NCBI GenBank assembly: GCA_016933395.1
Contig: JAFGBA010000246.1
Span: 1 to 32,481, forward strand
Reading direction: 5' to 3'
Length of the DNA: 32,481 nt
DNA from: Sedimentisphaerales bacterium
GTDB lineage: Bacteria; Planctomycetota; Phycisphaerae; Sedimentisphaerales; SM23-30
The position numbers and the translations under genes were made by a program. The notes under the pieces are model-generated. The model worked only from the letters and a program-made list of their open reading frames with translations. It was not told the origin of the DNA and did not search any database. Positions within the stretch are counted from its first letter, which is position 1. Each line of letters begins with the position of its first letter. Positions 3,104 through 32,016 of the stretch are shown piece after piece.

Positions 3104-4093
3104 ATGGCGACGGATGTTAAGCAAATCGGCAATCTGGTTCAGGAAAAAAGTGAGTTTGTACGAATATTATTCGGTGAAATTGATAAAGTGATTGTCGGTC
3201 AGCGGTATATGTTGGAACGGATGCTGATCGGTTTATTAGCGAACGGACATATTTTACTGGAAGGCGTACCAGGGCTGGCCAAGACGATGGCGGTGACCAC
3301 CTTATCCCGGGCTATTGACGCTGATTTTCGACGAATCCAGTTCACGCCGGACCTGCTTCCCGCCGACTTGATCGGCACTCAGATTTATCGTCAATCGGAT
3401 GGTGATTTTTTCACCCGCAAGGGGCCGATTTTCGCCAATATCATCCTAGCTGATGAAATCAACCGAGCACCGGCCAAAGTCCAGAGTGCTTTATTGGAAG
3501 CCATGCAGGAAAGGCAGGTCTCCATTGGAGATGAGACTTTCGCGTTGCCTAGTCCTTTCCTGGTTTTGGCCACACAAAATCCCATTGAACAAGAGGGGAC
3601 TTATCCATTGCCGGAAGCCCAGCTTGATCGATTTATGATGAAACTCAAGATTGACTATCCTAATAAAGAAGAAGAACGTCAAATACTGGACAGGATGGCT
3701 CAGACGAATAAAACGTTCGACGTGAAAGCTGTCATCCGCCCTGACCAGATTGCCGAGGTGCGCGGCGTTGTTGATGAAATCTATATCGACGAAAAGATTA
3801 AGGATTATATTGTTGATATTGTGTGCGCCACCCGCGATCCGGTCAAGTATGGCATCGATATGGGTAATTTCATCAGTTACGGCGCCTCACCAAGAGCCAC
3901 CATATATCTGGCCATAGCGGCCAAAGCCCACGCTTTTATTCAACAAAGGGGATATGTAACGCCTCAGGACGTGAAAAGCATCGGCCTGGATGTATTGCGG
4001 CATCGAGTCATCGTTAGTTACGAGGCCGAAGCGGAGGATAAAACCAGCGAAGATATCATCAGGACGATTTTTGATAATATCGAAGTGCCGTAA
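3104..4093 (+). CDS. MoxR-family AAA+ ATPase
   Basis: 329 aa; Walker A GVPGLAKT; Walker B ILADEINRAPAKVQSALLEAMQERQ; ATQNPIEQEGTYPLPEAQLDRF, characteristic of MoxR. Confidence 0.95.
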   Translation: MATDVKQIGNLVQEKSEFVRILFGEIDKVIVGQRYMLERMLIGLLANGHILLEGVPGLAKTMAVTTLSRAIDADFRRIQFTPDLLPADLIGTQIYRQSDGDFFTRKGPIFANIILADEINRAPAKVQSALLEAMQERQVSIGDETFALPSPFLVLATQNPIEQEGTYPLPEAQLDRFMMKLKIDYPNKEEERQILDRMAQTNKTFDVKAVIRPDQIAEVRGVVDEIYIDEKIKDYIVDIVCATRDPVKYGIDMGNFISYGASPRATIYLAIAAKAHAFIQQRGYVTPQDVKSIGLDVLRHRVIVSYEAEAEDKTSEDIIRTIFDNIEVP

Positions 4094-4136
4094 AATTGCT
4101 TTGTGTTTGGTAATCGTCTTTATGTGACATGATGCC

Positions 4137-5012
4137 ATGATACCCCAGGAATTAATTAAAAAAATCAGGCAGATTCAGATATACACCTCAAGAACGGTGG
4201 ACGCCAGCTTTGCCGGCCAGTATGAAAGCGTTTTCAAAGGCCGCGGCATGGAGTTTGATGAAGTTCGTGAATATACTCCCGGTGACGATATTCGCACGAT
4301 TGATTGGAATGTAACCGCACGTACGGGGAGGCCGTATATAAAACGGTTTGTTGAAGAACGCGAGATGACGGTTATTTTTGCGGTTGATCTGAGCGCTTCG
4401 GGTGATTTCGGCACGGTTAACAAGGCAAAGAACGAATTGGCGGCCGAATTTTGTGCGGTTATGGCTTTCGCCGCCGCAAAAAACAATGACAAAGTAGGCT
4501 TGCTGGTCTTTTCCGATCAGATTGAGTTGTATATCCCTCCCAAAAAGGGCATCAACCATATGCTGCGCCTGGTTCGCGAGCTGTTATTTTTTCGCATGCC
4601 TAGAAGAAAAACGAACATCAGTCAAGCGTTGGATTATCTTGCCAAAATTCTGCACAAGAAAGCAACCGTATTCCTGGTGTCCGATTTTATTGAGTCCAAT
4701 TTCAGTAAACCTTTGAGTCTTTTGAATCGACGCCATGATGTAATCGCCGTTTCGGTGCGTGATCGAGCGGAAATTCAACTCCCGAATATTGGACTGGTTG
4801 AACTGATTGACGCGGAAACGGGTCAAACAATGCTTGTTGATACATCCAGCCGCCGTTTCAGAAACACCTACAAAAACACCAGCACCGAGCAATTTGACGA
4901 TTTAAAGGGTATGTTAAGACGAATCAATATCGATTGTATCAATATCAGTACGGATAAACCGTATATACGGGATTTAGTAAGATTTTTTCACATGCGTCAC
5001 AGGCGTCAATAA
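4137..5012 (+). CDS. DUF58 domain-containing protein (VWA-like fold)
   Basis: GRGMEFDEVREYTPGDDIRTIDWNVTARTGRPYIKRFVEERE signature, followed by VDLSASGDFG. Confidence 0.93.
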   Translation: MIPQELIKKIRQIQIYTSRTVDASFAGQYESVFKGRGMEFDEVREYTPGDDIRTIDWNVTARTGRPYIKRFVEEREMTVIFAVDLSASGDFGTVNKAKNELAAEFCAVMAFAAAKNNDKVGLLVFSDQIELYIPPKKGINHMLRLVRELLFFRMPRRKTNISQALDYLAKILHKKATVFLVSDFIESNFSKPLSLLNRRHDVIAVSVRDRAEIQLPNIGLVELIDAETGQTMLVDTSSRRFRNTYKNTSTEQFDDLKGMLRRINIDCINISTDKPYIRDLVRFFHMRHRRQ

Positions 5013-5058
5013 ACAATAACCGTTTCGCGATAGGAAATTTTATACGAGAGAATAAGTT

Positions 5059-6459
5059 ATGGAAGAAAAACTAAATTTCTCACTGCCTGAAAAAAAGCAA
5101 AAAACATCGCTTACGACCAAAATATCCGTCCTGTTATTATTCGTTTTAGTTGTCTTGATGCTGATCAATTTATTTAGACCTTTTCATCAAGGGTCGCGGC
5201 CGGAAAATTCAAATTCTCCTCTCGCAATTAATAAAATCAAGGAACTGGCCGTTAAACTGTCTGATCGCAATTTGTCCGCCCGGGCGGCCCGAGTTTGGCA
5301 GGAGTATTTATCCGCCGCCGATAATATATCTGATGTTGAACGAGCCAAGGTCCTTTACCAGATTGGGGTGCTTCTGGAAAAAACCGGTAGTTACGAAGAT
5401 GCGATTGAATATTTCTATCGCAGCGAAATGACCGCCGGCTTGTCCGAACTTGAATCCCAAATCAATACCCATGTCAAGGAATGCTTTGAAAAACTCGGTC
5501 AATTTTCAGCCTTGCGCTATGAATTGATGGATCGCACCAGCATGGATAAGTCCCGGCAGGCGGGTGATAAAATCGTGGCGGAAATCGGCCCGGAGAAATT
5601 TACCGAGGCCGACCTGGATTCAGTTATCGAGAAGGCCATAGATAATCAGCTTTCCGGCATGGCGGCGTTTATGACGACAGAACAACTCCATGAACAGAAA
5701 AAGAAAATATTGGATCAATACAAGGATCCGTCAGCCAGGCTGGATTTTCTCCGGTCGTGGCTTGCCGAGGAAGTATTGTATCGTCAGGCGTTGGCGGATA
5801 AATTGTCCGAACAGCCCGATGTCAAAAGCGTTATCGATGATGTGGTTCGCAGCGTACTCAGCCGGCGATTCATGGACAACGAACTGGCGGATAAAATCAA
5901 CATCACCGAAACCGATCTGCAAACATACTATCAAGCCCATAAAGATGAATATATGGAATCCGCCAAGGCGAGCATCAGCCATATTCTCGTCGAGAGCAAG
6001 CAGCAAGCGAATGACCTGAAGGATCGCCTTAAAAACGGCGACGATTTTAATGAACTCGCCAAAGAATTTTCCACGGATTCGGCGACGAAAGATAAAGGCG
6101 GGGAAATTAAAGCCGAGGTGGCGGAGGGAACTTATGTGTCAGGAATCGGCGAATTTGAAGAACTTAATCGCAGGATATTCGCCGCCAATGCCGGAGATAT
6201 TTTAGCGGAGCCTTTCAAGACGGACAAAGGCTGGGAAATTATCAAAGTGCGCGAGAAAACCGCAAAACGGCAAAAGAAATTTGATGAAGTCCGTCAACAG
6301 GTCATTACCGAATTGTTGAGCCAAAAACGCCGGGACGTTCAGGCCGGCCTTATTCAGCAGATGATGGACAGGTACAATGTTATCGTACACACTTCGGCAT
6401 TTAAGGGTGCAGAGCAGAATAATGCGGAACTTCCGGATAATACATCCGCCGGGAAATAA
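5059..6459 (+). CDS. Membrane-anchored PpiC/parvulin-type peptidyl-prolyl isomerase with TPR-like N-terminal part
   Basis: N-terminal TM segment ISVLLLFVLVVLMLINLF; TPR-like repeat (VLYQIGVLLEKTGSYEDAIEYFYRSE); rotamase region ASISHILVESKQQANDLKDRLKNGDDFNELAKEFSTDSATKDKGGEI. Confidence 0.85.
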   Translation: MEEKLNFSLPEKKQKTSLTTKISVLLLFVLVVLMLINLFRPFHQGSRPENSNSPLAINKIKELAVKLSDRNLSARAARVWQEYLSAADNISDVERAKVLYQIGVLLEKTGSYEDAIEYFYRSEMTAGLSELESQINTHVKECFEKLGQFSALRYELMDRTSMDKSRQAGDKIVAEIGPEKFTEADLDSVIEKAIDNQLSGMAAFMTTEQLHEQKKKILDQYKDPSARLDFLRSWLAEEVLYRQALADKLSEQPDVKSVIDDVVRSVLSRRFMDNELADKINITETDLQTYYQAHKDEYMESAKASISHILVESKQQANDLKDRLKNGDDFNELAKEFSTDSATKDKGGEIKAEVAEGTYVSGIGEFEELNRRIFAANAGDILAEPFKTDKGWEIIKVREKTAKRQKKFDEVRQQVITELLSQKRRDVQAGLIQQMMDRYNVIVHTSAFKGAEQNNAELPDNTSAGK

Positions 6460-6462
6460 CAT

Positions 6463-7521
6463 ATGTCGAAATTGGATATAAAAAATTCGACTATTTTTAT
6501 TATGTTGCTGTATGGCGGCCTGCAATTGTTTTGTTCAGGTTGTGAAAAAAACTCGGAGAAAAAACAGACCGTAACCTTTGAAATTGACAAAGAATATCAA
6601 AAAGGTCCTTTGACCGTTCACGTGCGTGTGGATAAATCCAAGCTGATGATTGCCGATACGTTGCTGTTGGAATTTGAAGCAAGTGTTGAGCCGGATTATG
6701 AAGTTAAAATGCCGGGTGTGGATGGGCTACTGAAGGATTTTGGTATTGTTGATTGGAATAATCCGGGCAGCAAGCTGGATGAAAATCATCGTGTGGTCAA
6801 TACTTATCGTTATCGGCTTGAGCCTTTTCTGTCAGGCACATTTTCCCTTCCCGCTTTTACCTTTGAATTTCACGGCGTTAACGATTCTAATGAACAAAAG
6901 CATGAATTGACCACGGAGCCGTTCGATATTGAAGTGACGTCGATTTTGGGAGAGCGGCGCGCCGATCTGAAAATAGCCGATATTGAGGGAGTTGTCGGCG
7001 TTCCCGCCAAGTCGTCGTATGGCTGGATTGGCATATTTTGCATTGTCGGTGTGGTTGTAGGGGGTTTCGTGTGTATTTATCTTATCCGTCGGCGGCCTCA
7101 CGAAGTGGTTAAGATTTTCAAGCCGGCCCATGAAATCGCATATGAACGGTTGCGGGATCTGGTGGAGCAGGACCTGATAAACGCCGGCAAAATAAAGGAA
7201 TTTTATGATCGTGTCAGTGATATTCTCAGGCATTATATCGAGCATCGATTTGATTTCAGAGCGCCAGAGAAAACCACGGAAGAATTTCTGGCCGAGATTC
7301 CATCGGCAAACGTGCTGTCTTCGCCGGATCAGAATCGCCTGGGTGAATTTCTTCAGCACTGTGATCTGGTGAAATTCGCCAGATACAGTCCCACAACCGA
7401 TCAGATTCAAAAAACCTTCGATTTGGTCAAGAATTTTATCGAAACAACCAAATCGGAGGAGAAAAAGATAGATATGGCGACAATAGCGTCTGATAAGAAG
7501 CTTGAAAGCGTAAGTGTATAA
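6463..7521 (+). CDS. BatD-like beta-sandwich membrane protein with DUF4381-like C-terminal segment
   Basis: N-terminal signal/possible lipobox (LFCSGC), beta-rich ectodomain, one TM (WIGIFCIVGVVVGGFVCIYLI), cytoplasmic AYERLRDLVEQDLINAGKIKEFYDRVSDILRHYIEHRF; position in Bat operon. Confidence 0.65.
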   Translation: MSKLDIKNSTIFIMLLYGGLQLFCSGCEKNSEKKQTVTFEIDKEYQKGPLTVHVRVDKSKLMIADTLLLEFEASVEPDYEVKMPGVDGLLKDFGIVDWNNPGSKLDENHRVVNTYRYRLEPFLSGTFSLPAFTFEFHGVNDSNEQKHELTTEPFDIEVTSILGERRADLKIADIEGVVGVPAKSSYGWIGIFCIVGVVVGGFVCIYLIRRRPHEVVKIFKPAHEIAYERLRDLVEQDLINAGKIKEFYDRVSDILRHYIEHRFDFRAPEKTTEEFLAEIPSANVLSSPDQNRLGEFLQHCDLVKFARYSPTTDQIQKTFDLVKNFIETTKSEEKKIDMATIASDKKLESVSV

Positions 7522-8613
7522 ATGGAATTGTATTCTCCCTGGGTATTATTGTTGTTTTTGCTTTTGCCGGCGGCAGGCTATCTGAAGCGGCGTCGGCGAA
7601 CATCGGCGGCGATACGATTTTCCAGCTTGAATAATGTTCGGCGTTGTCCGGTTTCGTGGCGGCAACGTTTGCGACCCTTGCAGCATATAATGCGTTTTTT
7701 CTGCATGGCGTTATTAATCCTGGCCATGGCGCGGCCCAGGAAAGGCACCGTGCTTTCAGAGATTTCGACGGAAGGCGTCGCCATTGAAGTTGTGGCGGAT
7801 CGTTCCGGCAGTATGCAGGCGGAAATGGACTATTTCGGTGAAAAGCCGGACCGTTTTGAAGTGGTGAAAAGAGTATTTTCCGACTTTATTTCCGGCGACA
7901 AGAAAGGCTTAACAGGTCGGGGCGGCGATCTGGTCGGTTTGATTACCTTTGCACGTTATGCGGATACAACCTGTCCGTTGGTGCTGAGCCACAATGTACT
8001 GCTTGAATTTCTGAAAAAGACTCAAATTGTCAGACTGCGCAGTGAGGACGGCACCGCCATTGGCGACGCCATTGCTCTGGCGGCGGCAAGGTTGAAAAAG
8101 GCCGAAGAAGAGATACAACAACGCAAAGTCCGTCTTCTCGAAACGGGTGAAAAACAACCGAATAAGCAGGAAGCCGGCTTTACCATCAAGAGCAAAGTAA
8201 TTATTCTGCTTACTGACGGTATGAATAACGCCGGTCGGTACGAGCCTCTTAATGCCGCCAAACTCGCCGAAGAATGGGGCATAAAAATCTACACCATCGG
8301 CATCGGTTCCGCACAGGCCTATACGACCATTCAAACGCCGCTGGGAACATATAAAATGCCGACCGGGCAGTATCTTGACGAAAATCTGCTTAAGGCCATC
8401 GCGGAAAATACCGGCGGATTTTACGGTCGGGCCGACAACGCGGAGACATTACTTCAGATTATTGAGAAAATCAACGATTTGGAAAAAACCGAAGTTAAAT
8501 CCATCCAGTATGCACAGTATTCGGAGCGTTTTGGACCGTGGACTCTGGGGGCGCTAATATTGTTGACGCTGGAAATCCTGGCTGGATGCACCTTGTTTCG
8601 CAAGATTCCTTGA
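7522..8613 (+). CDS. batA: VWA domain-containing BatA-type protein
   Basis: N-terminal TM segments, MIDAS-like motif DRSGSM, ILLTDGMNNAG, C-terminal TM; ATG immediately follows the upstream stop. Confidence 0.82.
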   Translation: MELYSPWVLLLFLLLPAAGYLKRRRRTSAAIRFSSLNNVRRCPVSWRQRLRPLQHIMRFFCMALLILAMARPRKGTVLSEISTEGVAIEVVADRSGSMQAEMDYFGEKPDRFEVVKRVFSDFISGDKKGLTGRGGDLVGLITFARYADTTCPLVLSHNVLLEFLKKTQIVRLRSEDGTAIGDAIALAAARLKKAEEEIQQRKVRLLETGEKQPNKQEAGFTIKSKVIILLTDGMNNAGRYEPLNAAKLAEEWGIKIYTIGIGSAQAYTTIQTPLGTYKMPTGQYLDENLLKAIAENTGGFYGRADNAETLLQIIEKINDLEKTEVKSIQYAQYSERFGPWTLGALILLTLEILAGCTLFRKIP

Positions 8614-8631
8614 AAAGGACTTGACCATTTT

Positions 8632-9645
8632 ATGAATTTGGGAAACGACAGAGCGTTGTGGTTGTTATTTGCCGTGCCAACCATTTTGGCGCCCCTATAT
8701 CTCTGGTGTTTCTGGCGAAAAGCCCGTGCTTTAAGGGTATTGGCCAGCGTCGATTTGCTTAAAAAGATTAATATTTCCACAAGCCTGCAAAAGCAGATAT
8801 TCAAGGCCATACTGCTGGTGATGGCGTTTATTAGTATCGTCATGGCATTAACACAGCCTCGTTGGAATCCTCAGGCTCAAAAAATAAAACGTCAGGGTCG
8901 GGATGTCTGTATTTTGCTGGATACGTCCCGTTCCATGCTGGCCGAGGACATCAAACCCAACAGGCTGGAACGGTCCAAAATAGCCATACGGGATCTCATG
9001 GAAACCTTACAGGGAGACCGAATTGCGATTGTCACGTTCGCCGGAAATGCGACGGTAAAATGCCCCCTGACTCAGGACTATGCCTTTGTACGAATGGTGT
9101 TGGCGGACATCTCAACGGAAAGCACAAGTCGAGGGGGCACCATGATCGGCGACGCCATCCGTAAAGCCGCCGAAGACGTTTTCGACAAACAAAGTCGTGA
9201 ATTTAAGGATATTATTTTGATCACCGACGGCGAGGATCATGATAGTTTTCCGGTGCAAGCCGCGGAAAAAGCCGGCAAAGAAGGTATTCGAATCATCGCC
9301 ATCGGTCTGGGGGATGAAAATCAGGGCTCTCGGATTCCCATTACAGGCCCGAACGGTGAAAAAACGTTTATGAAATACAAGGGGGAGGAGATTTGGTCCA
9401 AGCTGGATGCGGACACCCTCCGCCAGGCGGCGTATGCAACCGAAGGTGGAAAGTATTTATCGGTGGAACCGGGAACAACCCTGGACCTGGGTCAGATTTA
9501 CGAGGAACTGATCGTTTCGGCGCAAAAGCGTCAACTTGAATCGGCCACCATGATGCGATATGATGAAAAATTCCAGATTTTCCTTACTTTGGCATTGGCA
9601 TTGGTTATATGGGAGTATCTGACGAGTGACCGCAAGAAGACATAA
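8632..9645 (+). CDS. batB: VWA domain-containing BatB-type protein
   Basis: MIDAS motif DTSRSM, LITDGEDHDSFP, two N-terminal TM segments plus C-terminal TM (FQIFLTLALALVIWEYL). Confidence 0.82.
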   Translation: MNLGNDRALWLLFAVPTILAPLYLWCFWRKARALRVLASVDLLKKINISTSLQKQIFKAILLVMAFISIVMALTQPRWNPQAQKIKRQGRDVCILLDTSRSMLAEDIKPNRLERSKIAIRDLMETLQGDRIAIVTFAGNATVKCPLTQDYAFVRMVLADISTESTSRGGTMIGDAIRKAAEDVFDKQSREFKDIILITDGEDHDSFPVQAAEKAGKEGIRIIAIGLGDENQGSRIPITGPNGEKTFMKYKGEEIWSKLDADTLRQAAYATEGGKYLSVEPGTTLDLGQIYEELIVSAQKRQLESATMMRYDEKFQIFLTLALALVIWEYLTSDRKKT

Positions 9646-10783
9646 TATTATCATAACCCTGCTTTGTCTGATCGCGCTTGGTCGTGTAGCTAAAGCGGAT
9701 TCCTTGCACAATCTGGTGCATGAGGGAAACGCCCTGTATGATAAAGAACATTTTAATGAGGCAATCAAAGCCTATGACCAGGCTCTTGTTGACAACCCGC
9801 AATCACCAGAACCAAAATTCAATAAAGCTAATTGCTATTTCCGGCTGGATGACCTGACGAAGGCGGTAGATCTCTATAACGAAGCGGCCGCTGAAAGCAA
9901 GGATATGTCGTTGGTGGAAAAAGCCAAATATAATCTGGGTAATTGTCATTTTGAGCGGGGCGTCAAGCAAAAAGACTCCGATCTTCAGAAAGCCGTGGAG
10001 GATTTGCAGGCGAGTATTAGATGCTGGAGAGGTGTTCTGGAAATCCGCCCCGAAAATGAAAAAGCCGCTCAAAATATCGAAGTGGCCCGCCTGATAATCA
10101 AGGATATTATCGATCAAATCAACAAACAAAAGGAACAACAACAGCAACAGGCTCAAAAACAACAACAATTGCAGGAACAGCTTAAGGCCCTTGCCGAACA
10201 GCAAAAAGCCTTGGCCCAAAAAACACAACAAACGAAGGAACAGGCGGATCAGGGACAAATCAATTCCCAACAAGCCGAACAACGTTATCAGCAGCAATCT
10301 CAGGAACAAGATCGGATTAAAGATGAGACCGAACAGGCATTGCAGCAAGTTCAGCAGCAGGGAGCAAATGCGAACCAGACACAATCCATGCAACAGGCCG
10401 GCTCTGAGCTTGAGCAGGCGATAAATAATCAGGCAAAGGCACAATCCGATCTGAACGCTTTCCAAGGCGATCAAGCCGTTGACTCCCAGAACAAAGCTGT
10501 CAAACACCTTGAAAATGCCTTAAAAGCCTTGTCTCAACGGGATTCGTCGGGTCCGCAACAAAATCAGGAACAACAAGGACAGCAGCAAAAACAACAATCG
10601 TCTCAGCCACAACCATCTGACCAAACGAATGAAGAGGAAAAATCGCAGCAGCAAAACAAACAGCAGGCTGCCGCCGCTGCTGCCGCCACGGCGCAGGAAA
10701 TTCTGGATAAGGAGCAACAGGAGAAAAAACAGCGTCAGATTCTTCAACACGGCGGTTATCAGAATGTCGAGAAAGACTGGTAA
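9626..10783 (+). CDS. batC: TPR protein with long Gln-rich low-complexity region (BatC-type)
   Basis: GTG start overlapping the batB 3' end by 20 nt; signal peptide IIITLLCLIALGRVAKA; TPR-like HNLVHEGNALYDKEHFNEAIKAYDQAL; extensive QQQQQ tract. Confidence 0.75.
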   Translation: MTARRHNIIITLLCLIALGRVAKADSLHNLVHEGNALYDKEHFNEAIKAYDQALVDNPQSPEPKFNKANCYFRLDDLTKAVDLYNEAAAESKDMSLVEKAKYNLGNCHFERGVKQKDSDLQKAVEDLQASIRCWRGVLEIRPENEKAAQNIEVARLIIKDIIDQINKQKEQQQQQAQKQQQLQEQLKALAEQQKALAQKTQQTKEQADQGQINSQQAEQRYQQQSQEQDRIKDETEQALQQVQQQGANANQTQSMQQAGSELEQAINNQAKAQSDLNAFQGDQAVDSQNKAVKHLENALKALSQRDSSGPQQNQEQQGQQQKQQSSQPQPSDQTNEEEKSQQQNKQQAAAAAAATAQEILDKEQQEKKQRQILQHGGYQNVEKDW

Positions 10784-10784
10784 T

Positions 10785-12602
10785 ATGAATACCGGTGTTA
10801 AAATCTTTACACTATTGCTTTCAGTACTCCCATTCGGAGTCGTCCAGGGAGCTGTCAGAATTATCGCTCAGGTGGATACGTCCAAGGATATTTATGTTAA
10901 TGAAAATTTTGCCTATTACATTCTTATCGACGGAGACAACAAAGCGGGTGAGGTTGATCTCTCTCCTTTAGCGAAATATCATCCGCAAAGCGCCGGCAAC
11001 AGAGATGTATCGCAGACATCCATCAGTATTATTAACGGCAGAACAACAAAAACCGCCACCAAGCAGTATGTTATGAGCTATTCTTTAAACGTTGATCATC
11101 CCGGTCTCATACGCCTGCCGCCGGTTACCGTAACCCTTGATGGAAAAGATTATCAAACAAATCCCGTGGATATTACCATTCTTCAACCGGGCACAACCGA
11201 TCAATTGGATCTGGAAGTAACCTTATCAGAACAACGATGTTATGTCGGCCAGCCGATTATTATGACGGTTAATTTCTACATTTCCGCAAATATTGGCGAT
11301 TTTCAGTATAATATACCCATTTTTGACGGCGACGACTTCTATATTGAAGATGCGGATGTTTCCGATCAGCCGTTTAAGGAATATAATCTCGGCAACGGCG
11401 CCATCGCCCGCATCGCTCAATCTCGTACAACTCATCGCGGCAAGGATTCGATTCTGCTGTCCTTTAGCAAAGTTTTGATTCCCAAACAGTCCGGAGATAA
11501 GGTCATTCCGCCGGCTTGCGTTTCCGCCGATGTCGTTGTAGGTTACGATCGTACTCGCGACCCTTTTGACGTTTTCGGGTCGGCGAAAAAATACAAGCGG
11601 TTTATGGTCGGTTCAGAACCCTTGAAACTAACCATATTGCCGCTTCCGGAAGCAAACAAACCCAGTGGGTTTTATGGCCTGGTCGGTCAATATTCCATTT
11701 CGGCCTCCGCCCAACCCACGGAGGTCAATGTGGGCGATCCCATTACGCTGACGATAAAAATAGGCGGAAGTAAATATTTAAATCCGATCCAGTGGCCGAA
11801 TCTGGAGCAGATTTCGGAATTGGCGAATAACTTCAAAATTCCTTCGGAGAAGGCGACGCCCGCAATTGAAGACGGTTATAAGGTTTTCACCCAGACCATC
11901 CGGGCCGCTAACGATAACGTTGCTTACATACCATCTATACCGCTTGCCTATTTCGACGCCGATAAAGGTGAGTATGTCGTGGCTAAGACCGATCCTATAA
12001 AACTTAAGGTGTCGCCCACGAAGGTGCTTACCAGCGCCGATGTGGAAGGCGGAAGCACGGCGCGTTTAAATAAGGAAGTGGAAGCGATAAAAAAAGGACT
12101 TTCCGCCAATTACGAATCCTTTGACGCCCTGGTTGATCACACCTTTTCTCCCCTTGTTGTGGTAATCACCCCTGGTTATGCCGCCATCTGGGCCGCCCCT
12201 TCGTTTTTATTGCTGGTCAGTGTCATCGTCAGGCTCATTACCCACAAAACTCCGGGAAAAACGGCTTTACGTCGTAAACGAAGCGCCGCCGGCCGGTCTG
12301 TCCGTCTGCTCAAACAGATTTCTTCCGCTAAATCCGAATTGCGTCCTGAACAACTCGCTTCGGCGATGAAACAATATTTGGGCCGTCGCTTTGATAAAAC
12401 GGCAGGGTCATTGACATCCAACGATTGTTTTGAAATTATCATTCATGCCACAGAGAACAAGGACCTTGCCCAATGCTTCAGGGATATTATAGCTGAATGT
12501 GAAGCCGCCAGGTACGCTTTGAAAACAAACGATATTAATGAAACAAAGGTTTCTGAAGTGGTCAAACTTATTCGTGATATTGATAAAAAATCCAAAATGT
12601 GA
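10785..12602 (+). CDS. batD: BatD/oxygen-tolerance-like membrane protein
   Basis: In-frame ATG at 10785, one nt after the batC stop, followed by a signal peptide (MNTGVKIFTLLLSVLPFGVVQGA); several beta-sandwich repeats; TM near the C-terminal third. The ORF track start (10629) is a 52-codon extension inside batC. Confidence 0.8.
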   Translation: MNTGVKIFTLLLSVLPFGVVQGAVRIIAQVDTSKDIYVNENFAYYILIDGDNKAGEVDLSPLAKYHPQSAGNRDVSQTSISIINGRTTKTATKQYVMSYSLNVDHPGLIRLPPVTVTLDGKDYQTNPVDITILQPGTTDQLDLEVTLSEQRCYVGQPIIMTVNFYISANIGDFQYNIPIFDGDDFYIEDADVSDQPFKEYNLGNGAIARIAQSRTTHRGKDSILLSFSKVLIPKQSGDKVIPPACVSADVVVGYDRTRDPFDVFGSAKKYKRFMVGSEPLKLTILPLPEANKPSGFYGLVGQYSISASAQPTEVNVGDPITLTIKIGGSKYLNPIQWPNLEQISELANNFKIPSEKATPAIEDGYKVFTQTIRAANDNVAYIPSIPLAYFDADKGEYVVAKTDPIKLKVSPTKVLTSADVEGGSTARLNKEVEAIKKGLSANYESFDALVDHTFSPLVVVITPGYAAIWAAPSFLLLVSVIVRLITHKTPGKTALRRKRSAAGRSVRLLKQISSAKSELRPEQLASAMKQYLGRRFDKTAGSLTSNDCFEIIIHATENKDLAQCFRDIIAECEAARYALKTNDINETKVSEVVKLIRDIDKKSKM

Positions 12603-13411
12603 TGAAAAAATATAATATATTACTTCAATTCCTGTTATGGTTGTCAACAACGTCAATGGCCAAGGCCGAATTGTCAAAGGATGAAATCAATACGCTCTAT
12701 ATTGACGCGAATCATCAGTTCAGGCAGGCTAATGAGGCCGTGGATTCCGAACAGGCCAAACGGTACTATCAAAAAGCAATACTCGGTTTCGAGCGAATTA
12801 TTAATGAAGGTGATGTTCATAATCCTAAATTATATTATAATTTAGCCAATGCGTATTTACTCCGGGGACAACCGGGCGGGGCCATACTGAACTATCGCCG
12901 GGCCCAAAAACTCGATGGCGCGGACGAAAATATCCGGAAAAATCTGGCTTTCGCCCGCAGTCAACGAATCGATAAAATTACTCCAAAACCTGAAAAACGC
13001 ATTCTTCAGACGCTGTTTTTCTGGCATTATGATTTTTCTTTAAAAACCAGATCATTATTAACGTGTATATTTTGGGGAATGGCATGCCTCTGTATAACTG
13101 GTATGCTTTGGTTTGGCCGTTCCACTCCCTTAAAAGGATTAGCGGTTATTTCCGGTATTTTGCTGTTTTGTTTTTTAGCGTCGGTGCTTGTTGAATATAG
13201 AGCTTTCGCCCACGATGTTAACGGCGTCATTATCACCAAAGAAGTTATCGCTCGTCAGGGAGACGGCGTTAATTACCCTCCCAGTTTCAAAGAACCGCTT
13301 CATGAAGGAACAGAATTTTATCTGATTGAAAAAAGGCCGGGATGGTTGCATATACGCCTTTCTGACGGAAGTGATGGCTGGATAGTCGATGATAGTACTG
13401 ATTTAATTTAA
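12599..13411 (+). CDS. batE: BatE-type TPR protein with C-terminal bacterial SH3-like domain
   Basis: Signal peptide, TPR (PKLYYNLANAYLLRGQPGGAILNYRRAQKLDGADENIRKNLAFAR), two TM segments, SH3-like KEVIARQGDGVNYPPSFKEPLHEGTEFYLIEKRPGWLHIRLSDGSDGWI. Start GTG 12599 or ATG 12602, overlapping the batD stop. Confidence 0.8.
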   Translation: MMKKYNILLQFLLWLSTTSMAKAELSKDEINTLYIDANHQFRQANEAVDSEQAKRYYQKAILGFERIINEGDVHNPKLYYNLANAYLLRGQPGGAILNYRRAQKLDGADENIRKNLAFARSQRIDKITPKPEKRILQTLFFWHYDFSLKTRSLLTCIFWGMACLCITGMLWFGRSTPLKGLAVISGILLFCFLASVLVEYRAFAHDVNGVIITKEVIARQGDGVNYPPSFKEPLHEGTEFYLIEKRPGWLHIRLSDGSDGWIVDDSTDLI

Positions 13412-27392: not shown

Positions 27393-27443
27393 AAAAAAAA
27401 CGTAACAAAAAGGCGCCATTAGCAACTTATCTATAGGTGTTAC

Positions 27444-29399
27444 GTGATACTTGACAAAGCCGATATAGGTAATCTTGTCGCCCAGGCGCGGCAAGGCCAT
27501 GAGGAGTCACTCTCTCAACTCTCCTCTATGGCCGAGCCCAGGATTCGCGCCTACATTCATCGCGTCACGCTGGATCCGGAACTCACCGATGATCTGGTGC
27601 AAGAGACGCTGCTCCTAATGGTGAAATCTCTGGCGAGCCTGAAAAAAAAGGAGTCGTTTTGGCCTTGGCTCTATCGCATTGCCTTACGGGTCATCCAAAC
27701 CCATTATCGCAAATCGAGCCGCCAGCCGGCGTTTAATATGTCAGCCATTGATGATCAATTTCTGGATTACCAGCCCGCACCGGCAGAGGCAGAAGGGGTA
27801 GACCGCCTTATCGAGAAAGAGTTAGCCCGCAAAGTCTTCGTTTCCATGGGTCAGCTCAAGGAGCATTATCGGGCGGCGATAGCGCTGCGGTGTTTCGATA
27901 ATCTCTCTTATGAGGAGGTGGGCGAGGCCTTGGGTTGTACGGGTTTGACCGCACGGATGCTCTTCTTCCGGGCTAAAAAAGCACTCCAACGACGGTTGGC
28001 TCGGCAGGGAATCCGCAAGGCGTCGTTTATCCTGGCCCTGGGACTGTTCGGTCGTTTGACGGCGCCGGCGGAAGCGGCCGGAACCGGTTTGGTTGGCGGC
28101 GGCGTCGCGAGCGGTTCCCTGGCGGCCGGCGTCGGCGGATCAATATTGGTAGTGCTGACCAGCAAAATAACGATGGTGGTCACCAGTGTGGCCGCTGTAA
28201 TTATAGGTGGATGGGCAATAACCCGACCGACATCCTGGTTTCCCTTGTCCCTGTCCATGCCCAGCCGGGCTAACGTCATCAGTTGCCGCTTCACCGAGCA
28301 ATCCCAGCACCGCGGCAGCAATGTCCCTCGTAGTCTCAGCAAAGGTGCTTACGAACAATGGTTGTATTTCCCCGATGGTGTCGATGGCCCCATGCTTTCG
28401 CGGATGCAGCGCTGGACCGCTGATGAGAAGGGTAAGCTTTGTGCATGGCTGCAGGATGAATACGCCGATTATTATTATGAAAGCGGCACGAATACGATCT
28501 ATAACCTCAATTACAATCTTTTCCGCGGCGGTTTACGGGTGCGACAGTTGCCCTGCGACCCACCCGAAATGAAAACGTTTATCAACAAAATCGAAGGCGG
28601 CGCTACCGGCGTTGAATGGCATATCGATTGTTTGCGGGGGATGCCGATTTCCCGTATTGATCATCGTTTTGTCGATGTGCCGGATTACAAAACCACGTAT
28701 GAATACAATACGCTTACCGCGGATGATTTTATCTACGGCTGGGGCGATAATGTGCCGGTGAAGGATCATCGCGACGCCATGCACAAACGGGGCTGGATGC
28801 ACTACACGATTACCGGCGACTGGAACGGTCATACTATTGAGGCCGAAGGCTTCGCCCCGATCTATTACGCTAACTATTGCCGGCATCGCCCCTGGCTGAA
28901 AGTCGCCGTTGATGGCAAGCTTCGTTACCTCGACACGCCGCAGGGAGCATTGGCCCTGGACGAAGCCGGCAAGCTGAAAACAAGCTACGCTTCCAGCGCC
29001 TTTTTCGCCGGTTTGGGTCGGCCCTGGAGCGGATTACACGTGGTTGACACCGTTCGGCGGGATGGTGCATTGCGACAGTGTCCCTTCCTCACCACCTTCG
29101 ATGATAATTATACCGTCGCCGCTATCATCATCAGCGCCAAGGATTCCAGGTTGGGTGAATGTGAACTGATTTATGATATTAATCTCGACAACGATCTTAT
29201 CGAAGAGCTTCATCTGCGAACCGCGGATGCCAAAGGCTCACGTGAATGCGGCCGCCTGACTTTTACTTATATCGACGTTAATCCCACCCAAGCCAAGGTC
29301 GAACCGCCCGCACCGCCTGCCCTGCCCAAAGATATCGTTCCATCTCGCCGGCTGCAGGCAAGTCCCGGCCCGGCGTGGCTGCTCGATATGGCGATATAA
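27444..29399 (+). CDS. ECF-type RNA polymerase sigma factor with membrane-spanning linker and uncharacterised C-terminal domain
   Basis: Sigma70 region 2 (PELTDDLVQETLLLMVKSLASLKKKESFWPWLYRIALRVI) and region 4 (LKEHYRAAIALRCFDNLSYEEVGEALGCTGLTARMLFFRAKKALQRRL); then hydrophobic SILVVLTSKITMVVTSVAAVIIGGWAI and about 400 aa of unassigned sequence. GTG start. Confidence 0.85.
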   Translation: MILDKADIGNLVAQARQGHEESLSQLSSMAEPRIRAYIHRVTLDPELTDDLVQETLLLMVKSLASLKKKESFWPWLYRIALRVIQTHYRKSSRQPAFNMSAIDDQFLDYQPAPAEAEGVDRLIEKELARKVFVSMGQLKEHYRAAIALRCFDNLSYEEVGEALGCTGLTARMLFFRAKKALQRRLARQGIRKASFILALGLFGRLTAPAEAAGTGLVGGGVASGSLAAGVGGSILVVLTSKITMVVTSVAAVIIGGWAITRPTSWFPLSLSMPSRANVISCRFTEQSQHRGSNVPRSLSKGAYEQWLYFPDGVDGPMLSRMQRWTADEKGKLCAWLQDEYADYYYESGTNTIYNLNYNLFRGGLRVRQLPCDPPEMKTFINKIEGGATGVEWHIDCLRGMPISRIDHRFVDVPDYKTTYEYNTLTADDFIYGWGDNVPVKDHRDAMHKRGWMHYTITGDWNGHTIEAEGFAPIYYANYCRHRPWLKVAVDGKLRYLDTPQGALALDEAGKLKTSYASSAFFAGLGRPWSGLHVVDTVRRDGALRQCPFLTTFDDNYTVAAIIISAKDSRLGECELIYDINLDNDLIEELHLRTADAKGSRECGRLTFTYIDVNPTQAKVEPPAPPALPKDIVPSRRLQASPGPAWLLDMAI

Positions 29400-29472: not shown

Positions 29473-29566
29473 CGTGCGTTTTGGGGGAATATTTGTAACA
29501 TTCGTATTTGGATAGCGTTATAGATGGTGGAATAACCATAACTTATTGTCATTGCGTGAGGCCGGC

Positions 29567-30991
29567 GTGCGAAAACTGAAAATCATTCTGATCGTCATCG
29601 GGTGTATTGTCGGGGGGTTGATTGTGCTGGGCATGATGGGGCAAATGATGGTGGCCCGTCAGCAGGCGTTGGTTGAAACCCCCAAGGTGCGGGTGGAATC
29701 GCCCCGGCGGGGGGAACTGATCGAAGTCGTCGACGCCCCCGGGGAGGTGCAGGCCCGGCGGACGGTATCGATTGCCGCCAAGGTGTCGGCCCGCATTACG
29801 GAACTGCCTTACCGGGAGGGGGATAAGGTTACGGTAGGCGACCTGAACGCGAATCCGCCGGTTCCGCCGTCGGTGCTGGTGCGACTGGACGATACCGACC
29901 TGAAGGAAGGCCTGAAAGCCCTGGAGTCGGGGCGGGACGCCCAGGCCGCACAGATTGAAGTGCAAAAGACTTCACTGGAGGCGGAAATGGCCAATCTCGC
30001 CGCCCTGGGGGTGAGCCTGGAGCAGGCCCGGCGCGACCTTCAGCGGCAGGAGCAGTTGCTTGCCGGTAAGGATATCAGCGCCGCTGACGTGGAGGCCACG
30101 CAAAGCCGGGTGGAGGAATTGGCCAATCAGTTAATCGCCGCCCGGCGTAATCACGAAGCCTCCGAACTGGGCCTGCAGGTCAGCGAACACCGCCTGCGGG
30201 CGGCCGACGCCGATATTGCCCGCGCCCGCGACAGCCTGAGTTACACGACCATTGTGGCGCCCATTGACGGGGTGATTATCAAAATCTTCAAGGAGGTCGG
30301 CGAGGTGGTGACCGGGGCGATTAATTATGCCGGGACGGAGATTATGAAGGTGGCGGACTTGTCGGAGATGCTGGTGATCGCCCAGGTGAATGAGACCGAT
30401 ATTGCCAAGGTCAAGCCCGGCCAGAATGTGGAGGTTCGCATCCATGCCTATGGAAATGAGCCGTTCAAGGGCACGGTGGAATCGATTGCTTTAACGCATG
30501 TGCTGGACCGGTATGGGTCCAAGTGCTTCGAGACCAAGATCCGCCTGGCGCCCGATGAGCGGGTGATTCGCACCGGCCTTAGCGCCGATACGGAGATCGA
30601 GACCGTGCGGCATAAGGATATTTTAACCGTTCCCAGTCAGGCCGTGCTCTCCCGGCCGACGGATGACCTGCCGGCGGAGATTCGCAAGGACAATCCCAAT
30701 GTGGACATGAACAAGAATCTCGCCACGGTGGTGTATCGCCTCATTGACGGCAAGGCCGTAGTGACGCCGGTGGCCATCGGACCCAGCGATGCGACGCATA
30801 CGGTTCTCACCTCGGGCGTGAGCGAAGCGGACCAGATCATCGTCGGGCCTTATAAGGTGCTCGAAAGCATCAAGCACGATCAGACGCTGGAAGATGAGAA
30901 CAAAAAAGACGAGACGGAAACCGGGAAAGACGGTGAAGAAGTAGAGCCGAAGATTTCACAGAGAAACACGAATTTATATGTGTCATGCTGA
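29567..30991 (+). CDS. HlyD/MacA-type periplasmic adaptor (membrane fusion) protein
   Basis: N-terminal TM (KIILIVIGCIVGGLIVLGMMGQMMV), VDAPGEVQARRTVSIAAKVSARI lipoyl-like, coiled coil, SYTTIVAPIDGVIIKIFKEVGEVV. GTG 29567 preferred over TTG 29546. Confidence 0.85.
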   Translation: MRKLKIILIVIGCIVGGLIVLGMMGQMMVARQQALVETPKVRVESPRRGELIEVVDAPGEVQARRTVSIAAKVSARITELPYREGDKVTVGDLNANPPVPPSVLVRLDDTDLKEGLKALESGRDAQAAQIEVQKTSLEAEMANLAALGVSLEQARRDLQRQEQLLAGKDISAADVEATQSRVEELANQLIAARRNHEASELGLQVSEHRLRAADADIARARDSLSYTTIVAPIDGVIIKIFKEVGEVVTGAINYAGTEIMKVADLSEMLVIAQVNETDIAKVKPGQNVEVRIHAYGNEPFKGTVESIALTHVLDRYGSKCFETKIRLAPDERVIRTGLSADTEIETVRHKDILTVPSQAVLSRPTDDLPAEIRKDNPNVDMNKNLATVVYRLIDGKAVVTPVAIGPSDATHTVLTSGVSEADQIIVGPYKVLESIKHDQTLEDENKKDETETGKDGEEVEPKISQRNTNLYVSC

Positions 30992-31359: not shown

Positions 31360-32016
31360 TTATAAGTTTTTCCCTAGATATAGTGGGCTTTCCCAATCAT
31401 TTTCTTCCAACCAATTTTTGTATCCATCGAGAATCCGCCCACCTAAGTTCATAGCGAACTCTACGCCGAAAAGCACCAGAATAATATACAGTTCATACCC
31501 CTTTGTATAAAGTAAGTCGTATTCATTAAGCACCTCAAATGTTTGGCCATTCTCTTTAAATATGGCATTTACAGGATATAGTGTTCGAAAAGTAAATGGC
31601 CAATCTTCTTTTCCGTAGTTGAATCGCACGAATTTTCTTAGCTCATCGATTTCAGGTTTTATGACGATCTCTTCATTCCAACCATTAACTTTCTGAGCGC
31701 ATTGCGCAAGTGCCTCAAGACCGACCTTACCAAGAAACCGACCCATTACTCGATAATCTGGTAATTCCGGTTTATCAGTATCTCCAAAATTTGGAATCTT
31801 TCCCTTTTTACTTGGAAGCTGTTTGTCATTTCTCAATAGTTTAAAGATCCCTGAAGATAGAACGGGTTTTTCAATTTCTCTACTAAAATAATTATTACAT
31901 TTGTCACACACAATACCAGGGGCAAGCATAGCTTCAATATTGCCAAGCGATTCAGGAAGAATATGTTCTGACGATACACATTCATTAGATGTATGTTTAC
32001 AAAAGATGCATTTCAT
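31360..32016 (-). CDS. HNH endonuclease-like protein (HNH_5-type zinc-binding motif)
   Basis: MKCIFCKHTSNECVSSEHILPESLGN ... GIVCDKCNNYFSREIEKPVL: CxxC...EHILPE...CxxCN arrangement. Confidence 0.78.
   Translation of the reverse strand: MKCIFCKHTSNECVSSEHILPESLGNIEAMLAPGIVCDKCNNYFSREIEKPVLSSGIFKLLRNDKQLPSKKGKIPNFGDTDKPELPDYRVMGRFLGKVGLEALAQCAQKVNGWNEEIVIKPEIDELRKFVRFNYGKEDWPFTFRTLYPVNAIFKENGQTFEVLNEYDLLYTKGYELYIILVLFGVEFAMNLGGRILDGYKNWLEENDWESPLYLGKNL

Follow-up and report, generated by a model that had tools for sequence, protein, structure and literature searches.

A predicted membrane-tethered ECF sigma factor with an order-restricted C-terminal domain in Sedimentisphaerales

How might an ECF sigma factor be controlled when it is continuous, in a single polypeptide, with a hydrophobic segment and a long C-terminal extension? 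The question is raised by a gene in contig JAFGBA010000246.1 of a Sedimentisphaerales bacterium, analysed here over a stretch of 32,481 nucleotides (the window). The fusion gene (27444-29399, +), defined by its reading frame, by Pfam and NCBIfam matches and by its relatives, is open throughout, begins with a GTG codon at the position where its relatives start and encodes 651 amino acids. Sigma regions 2 and 4, proposed in an earlier sequence-only reading, were confirmed by matches above the Pfam cut-offs to PF04542 (Sigma70_r2; residues 31-93, 27534-27722, +; E 6.5e-12) and PF08281 (Sigma70_r4_2; residues 135-181, 27846-27986, +; E 1.6e-7) and by a match to TIGR02937 (sigma70-ECF) above the NCBIfam cut-off. 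Both regions lie inside the first 185 residues. Neither database gave a match to sigma region 3, and the presence of regions 2 and 4 with region 3 absent places the protein in the ECF class (sigma70 family, group IV). Pfam and NCBIfam searches of the neighbouring window genes bore out the absence of an adjoining anti-sigma gene: the gene upstream of the fusion codes for an AraC-type regulator, and the one downstream for an HlyD/RND-type periplasmic adaptor.

Fusion relatives are encoded in 92 of 161 genomes of the same order, as judged by protein search; nearly all of their frames are open and measure 610-670 amino acids, sigma part included. When 392 genomes sampled from the phylum were searched with a profile, relatives turned up in three, all of this order, and in none outside it; the named relatives are from Phycisphaerales/Sedimentisphaerales MAGs, and none was found on viral contigs. 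The bacterium's own genome holds a second, distant family member on contig C319. Among 82 aligned members the succession of sigma part, conserved segment, transmembrane stretch and C-terminal domain is constant, and sigma-part identity between pairs of members correlates with C-terminal identity (Spearman 0.58), which fits joint inheritance of both parts. A tree of these 82 sequences separates clade I (29 members) from clade II (53); the window protein, a divergent member (end branch 1.15, identity to relatives at most 42%), falls within clade I in a well-supported subclade of 15, named Ic. A stand-alone gene for the C-terminal domain was considered and rejected: apparent cases stop at contig ends or, in L152 and L158, have lost part of the sigma region, and all such copies are read as truncated or damaged rather than as a separate gene. 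Locus L129 (2593-3921), from a genome of the same family, encodes a related 442-amino-acid protein with a sigma part, a transmembrane stretch and a different, shorter C-terminal domain; the sigma-transmembrane module may thus accept other sensors.

The hydrophobic segment is real and is found at the same place in 82 of 82 aligned relatives. Hydropathy of the window protein and of these relatives predicts a single transmembrane segment at about residues 234-260 (28143-28223, +), and scoring by a simple residue insertion scale puts the best helix of the extension within 222-275 in every member. In the relatives, the 60 residues that precede this segment are basic and poor in acids (mean 7.1 K/R and 1.2 D/E) while the 60 that follow are near-neutral (5.7 K/R and 6.1 D/E), a bias that fits an N-in/C-out orientation. 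The most economical interpretation of these data, a prediction, is that the chain crosses the membrane once and leaves the C-terminal domain outside. The stretch between region 4 and the membrane segment spans about 50 residues and is rich in Ala, Gly and Thr; residues 186-233 contain neither Cys nor His, and Pfam detects no anti-sigma domain of the IutY type behind region 4. Part of this stretch is conserved (residues 189-213; 28008-28082, +; G-x-x-K-...-LFGK/R-x-TA-...-AA), with the consensus G-L-G-K-x-x-LL-x-AL-x-LFGK/R-x-TA over the relatives. There being no room for a classical anti-sigma domain, inhibition would be exerted by tethering itself or by this conserved segment.

We favour the view, with a probability of roughly 0.6, that the fusion is a self-contained, tethered ECF sigma factor that senses the envelope, is freed on a signal and drives its own gene together with envelope genes; here the topology is predicted, and signal, fold and release are what we infer. 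A single transmembrane helix would anchor the sigma domain to the cytoplasmic membrane, on its inner face, with the order-specific domain of about 380 residues, perhaps LolA/RseB-like, monitoring the envelope from outside. A signal would make the sigma part available to RNA polymerase, most likely through removal of the outer domain and cutting of the membrane helix by proteases (regulated intramembrane proteolysis). Once freed, it would transcribe both its own gene and others that encode exported proteins, membrane proteins and lipoproteins, the candidate target in the window being the downstream HlyD-type adaptor gene. Release by proteolysis is suggested by the precedent of IutY (PMC5411451) and by the model proposed for ECF52 (PMC5826349). 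The bacterium's own genome encodes Peptidase_M50 (site-2 type) proteins. To our knowledge, however, M50 peptidases are near-universal. The one-component, membrane-tethered switch proposed at the outset from the sequence thus stands in large part, in view of the constant domain order, the single membrane segment, the lack of an adjacent anti-sigma gene and the signs of autoregulation and of a regulon (see below); the redox sensing by cysteines that went with it does not.

The sigma factor might instead stay tethered and uncleaved, active while membrane-bound, with an outside ligand inducing a conformational change that alters how available it is; ECF41/ECF42-type extensions have been proposed to act in this way. 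Conformational control by extensions is on record (PMC8999054), the short linker without Cys or His leaves a classical anti-sigma domain nowhere to fit, and the LFGK-x-TA segment lies directly behind region 4, positioned to act on it. We nevertheless judge this unlikely, though worth keeping in mind: IutY, a membrane-tethered ECF factor with a worked-out mechanism, is activated by proteolysis (PMC5411451), and a sigma factor held at the membrane would have restricted transcription reach.

Release of a tethered sigma factor, as favoured here, has its nearest parallel in IutY of Pseudomonas putida (ECF243), a sigma-anti-sigma fusion cut by Prc and RseP to free the sigma part (PMC5411451, PMC8999054). 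Like the window fusion, for which topology is predicted, IutY is a single polypeptide with a cytoplasmic sigma domain, a transmembrane segment and a periplasmic part (PMC5411451, PMC8999054). It differs in having an anti-sigma domain and in working with an outer-membrane receptor, whereas the fusion has no receptor gene next to it, no space for a classical anti-sigma domain and an outer domain with no relative detected outside the order. The same succession of sigma part, membrane segment and outer domain occurs in ECF48, ECF52 and ECF53 of Actinobacteria (e.g. SCO4117), which carry a zinc-finger anti-sigma domain, a transmembrane segment and a long extracytoplasmic extension, and for which autoregulation and proteolytic release have been proposed (PMC5826349). 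These belong to another phylum; in the fusion, Pfam finds neither a zinc finger nor, in the outer domain, a carbohydrate-binding module, and Cys and His are missing from the linker, as noted above. That C-terminally extended ECF factors are known in Planctomycetes, as the sequence-only reading had stated, is correct (PMC8999054). Those of the ECF57 type (WD40-like) and other extended planctomycete ECFs resemble the fusion in lacking an anti-sigma partner (PMC8999054), and several ECFs of Tuwongella immobilis were recovered in detergent-soluble fractions (PMC8567305). The fusion is set apart from ECF57 by the lack of a WD40 match in Pfam and by the position of its conserved cysteines, Cys150 and Cys165 (98% and 74% of relatives), both of which fall inside region 4, while ECF57 has one each in regions 2 and 4. 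Transmembrane-tethered ECF factors are therefore already known; judged against the descriptions of IutY, ECF48/52/53 and ECF57, three features are new here: an outer domain confined to one order, promoters and partners that differ by clade, and a predicted regulon of envelope genes.

The conserved segment behind region 4 bears on two alternatives to the single-crossing topology. Its hydrophobic stretch (about 192-204), lying ahead of the membrane segment, could form a hairpin with the latter, so that the C-terminal domain would be cytoplasmic and would sense an internal or membrane-surface signal. The earlier stretch, however, scores worse than the main one in 82 of 82 members on the insertion scale (median 5.8 vs 1.6), its core of about 10 residues is short and closes with a K/R (position 204) conserved in 71 of 82, and many neighbours and targets of the fusion are exported; a hairpin is accordingly improbable. 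The same segment (LFGK/R-x-TA-...-AxA) resembles a signal-peptidase region, save for the basic residue after the hydrophobic core. A signal-peptidase-like site at the AxA, splitting sigma factor and sensor constitutively after insertion, could account for the basic residues ahead of a short hydrophobic core and for the fact that 67 of 80 relatives have AxA at most 8 residues from the FGxxT motif, where composition predicts about 38%. Ala-rich linkers, on the other hand, readily yield AxA, and the conserved K/R comes right behind the core, where basic residues are unusual in signal peptides. We regard constitutive splitting as very improbable.

For a tethered factor freed on a signal, the C-terminal domain (residues 275-651; 28266-29396, +), predicted to be extracytoplasmic, would be the sensor. 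The extension had been described as unassigned and uncharacterised, and so it is: its approximately 380 residues gave no Pfam, NCBIfam or PDB sequence match when searched as a single sequence, and the family, searched as a profile or by its members, gave none in Pfam or PDB, the PDB profile search returning chance hits only. The structure search that had been recommended for it was carried out on two AlphaFold models built on three sequences only (the window protein and two relatives), with mean pLDDT values of 39.8 and 38.8. With the full-length model (mean pLDDT 38.8, TM-scores about 0.33), Foldseek ranked LolA-LolB (5.2e-4), MucB (9.4e-4), RseB (5.7e-3), LolA-superfamily and ependymin-type proteins at the top; the sigma part of the model retrieved structures of sigmaE and SigH, which serves as an internal positive control. 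The extension-only model gave LolA and VioE among its better hits, which were weaker and mixed with unrelated ones. Foldseek thus returned LolA-type matches repeatedly, albeit from low-confidence models, and comparison of profiles did not second them: hhalign of the family profile against LolA_like sets of the same planctomycete class gave a probability of about 1% or less, as compared to 91% for two LolA sets matched to each other, and a relation to LolA/RseB by sequence was rejected. The hits came without aligned ranges; the match possibly belongs to the strand-rich half of the domain (residues 450-611; 28791-29276, +; 11 predicted strands in the low-confidence models), which may be LolA/RseB-like. 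We treat such a fold as a lead with slightly less than even odds.

A LolA/RseB-like domain that binds a ligand or senses proteins is, on these models, a better guess than a cysteine redox sensor. The extension does contain the eight cysteines listed in the sequence-only reading (281, 333, 371, 396, 479, 546, 573 and 602), yet seven of them are private to the window protein, each occurring in 1-2% of the 82 relatives. The only widely conserved one is Cys333 (codon 28440-28442, +), found in 84%; the extension thus lacks a conserved cysteine pair, which leaves a disulphide switch unsupported. An extracytoplasmic redox- or metal-sensing domain using these eight cysteines is most improbable, even though metal sensing by Cys-rich extensions is known from CorE-type ECF factors (PMC8999054), since seven of the eight are found in at most 2% of relatives and Cys333 itself is absent from L138 and L139.

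Turning to what the tethered factor might transcribe, there are signs in the upstream sequences that the fusion sigma factors transcribe their own genes. Upstream regions of clade I share an ECF-type promoter, GTAAC-N16-CGTC, which precedes 10 of the 15 subclade Ic genes, mostly 48-51 nt upstream (0.001 expected per gene); in clade II, 13 of 55 genes (the 53 tree members and two short copies) carry another motif, GTCA-N19-ACTT, at -38 to -43, some genes in these counts being close relatives and hence not fully independent. Clade-specific motifs at a fixed distance are as expected from autoregulation by each clade's own sigma factor. The window gene has a candidate promoter 42 nt before its start codon (GTAAC-N16-CAACT; 27402-27427, +), with the -35 element and spacing of subclade Ic and a diverged -10 (CAACT). 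A candidate target promoter, GTAAC-N16-CGTTA (29495-29520, +), lies between the fusion gene and the HlyD-type gene; it is the only GTAAC-N16-CGT on either strand of the window, with a chance of about 0.002 of occurring in that gap. In a window-wide scan, a matrix made from the relatives' promoters did not single out the window sites above shuffled sequence. The two sites point to autoregulation and to the HlyD-type gene as a target, but are suggestive only.

The gene that follows on the same strand is generally close, with a median gap of 29 nt at the relatives' loci. In clade II, the next gene encodes a homologue of large, secreted right-handed beta-helix proteins in 44 of 55 cases. Taking all loci together, 44 of 75 next genes do so, compared with 9 of 292 control ORFs from those loci. 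Homology was used for this count because crude hydrophobicity of the next genes discriminated poorly (39% in the control). At loci such as L050, L154 and L190 the beta-helix gene (about 500-1200 aa) lies within a few tens of bases; several of its products carry a dockerin-like stretch towards the end, and several of the loci continue with a pseudopilin gene. We found no description of an operon of sigma fusion and beta-helix gene, with or without pseudopilin, such as is conserved in clade II. In subclade Ib (L043-L049, L053) a pseudopilin-type gene is directly next in 8 of 8 cases, in several overlapping the fusion's stop codon. Subclade Ic, to which the window belongs, often shows larger gaps and varied partners, many of them exported. 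Its partner in the window is the HlyD/RND-type adaptor gene (29546-30991, +, start codon uncertain), identified by TIGR01730 (RND_mfp, E 4.6e-37, above cut-off) and PF16576; no transporter partner for it appears before the contig end, near which lies an HNH_5 endonuclease-like gene (31360-32016, -). Elsewhere in the window a co-directional gene run (3104-13411) is headed by a MoxR ATPase gene (3104-4093), with no GTAAC-N16-CGT before it. Locus L040 (7337-11346, genome G044) carries two fusion genes in tandem, and G044 is also the genome richest in promoter-motif sites (19).

Genome-wide, the extended site GTAAC-N16-CGTCTA occurs 66 times in the 59 Mb of 13 subclade Ic genomes, as opposed to 3 times in the 36 Mb of 13 genomes of the order with no detected relative, a 13-fold higher density than in genomes without the family; the reversed pattern, used as a control, shows no such difference between the sets (0.88 and 1.02 per Mb). 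Among 48 sites inspected, 7 precede a fusion gene (6 flagged automatically and that of L222 found on inspection) and 30 a gene for a protein with a hydrophobic N-terminus, several of which are lipobox-like. Identified targets include phosphatidylserine decarboxylase (psd, accounting for two membrane-gene targets), MoxR ATPases, LRR proteins, aspartyl proteases and a PDZ lipoprotein. In a cross-check that was not part of the design of the motif search, several targets known from the motif only proved homologous to neighbours of the fusion elsewhere (MoxR, 64-74%; an LRR protein, 37% over 622 aa; a 180-aa family, 65%), with weaker homology for CarboxypepD_reg-type proteins of L039/L140. The bacterium's own genome, 70% complete, has two GTAAC-N16-CGTYTA sites, vs 8 for the reversed control; one exact site is located 88 nt upstream of the gene for a secreted CarboxypepD_reg protein, and there is none before its psd. 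A psd promoter site is also present at L248 in genome G020, where no fusion relative was detected; another sigma factor may share the GTAAC motif. Overall there are signs, at the level of promoter motifs, that the subclade Ic fusion controls exported, membrane and lipoprotein genes, psd and MoxR.

In E. coli, psd has been proven to be a target of sigmaE (PMC8138132). An envelope-directed regulon that includes psd, predicted here, and the resemblance of the low-confidence models to MucB, RseB and LolA folds liken the fusion to the sigmaE-RseA-RseB and AlgU-MucA-MucB systems. Those comprise three or more proteins, while the fusion is one and has neither an RseA-type anti-sigma domain nor LolA-like sequence similarity. 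By this analogy, the best reading of the fusion is as a one-protein counterpart of the sigmaE-RseA-RseB envelope-stress pathway. A fuller version, more speculative and in our estimate doubtful as a whole, would have that pathway condensed into one polypeptide whose outer LolA/RseB-fold domain binds lipids, lipoproteins or unfolded exported proteins, controls release of the sigma part and drives psd, lipoprotein, MoxR and surface-protein genes, each subclade having its own promoters and co-encoded exported partners.

Extended ECF sigma factors have been on record in Planctomycetes, with almost no mechanism given in the reviews consulted. The present family offers testable predictions: the promoter sequences of two clades, a list of targets, and exported partners, beta-helix proteins or pseudopilins, encoded right behind the sigma gene. 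If the proposed reading is true, sensing, tethering and transcription would be joined in one protein, and such a compact natural design would lend itself to studying how signals from outside the cell are passed to RNA polymerase.
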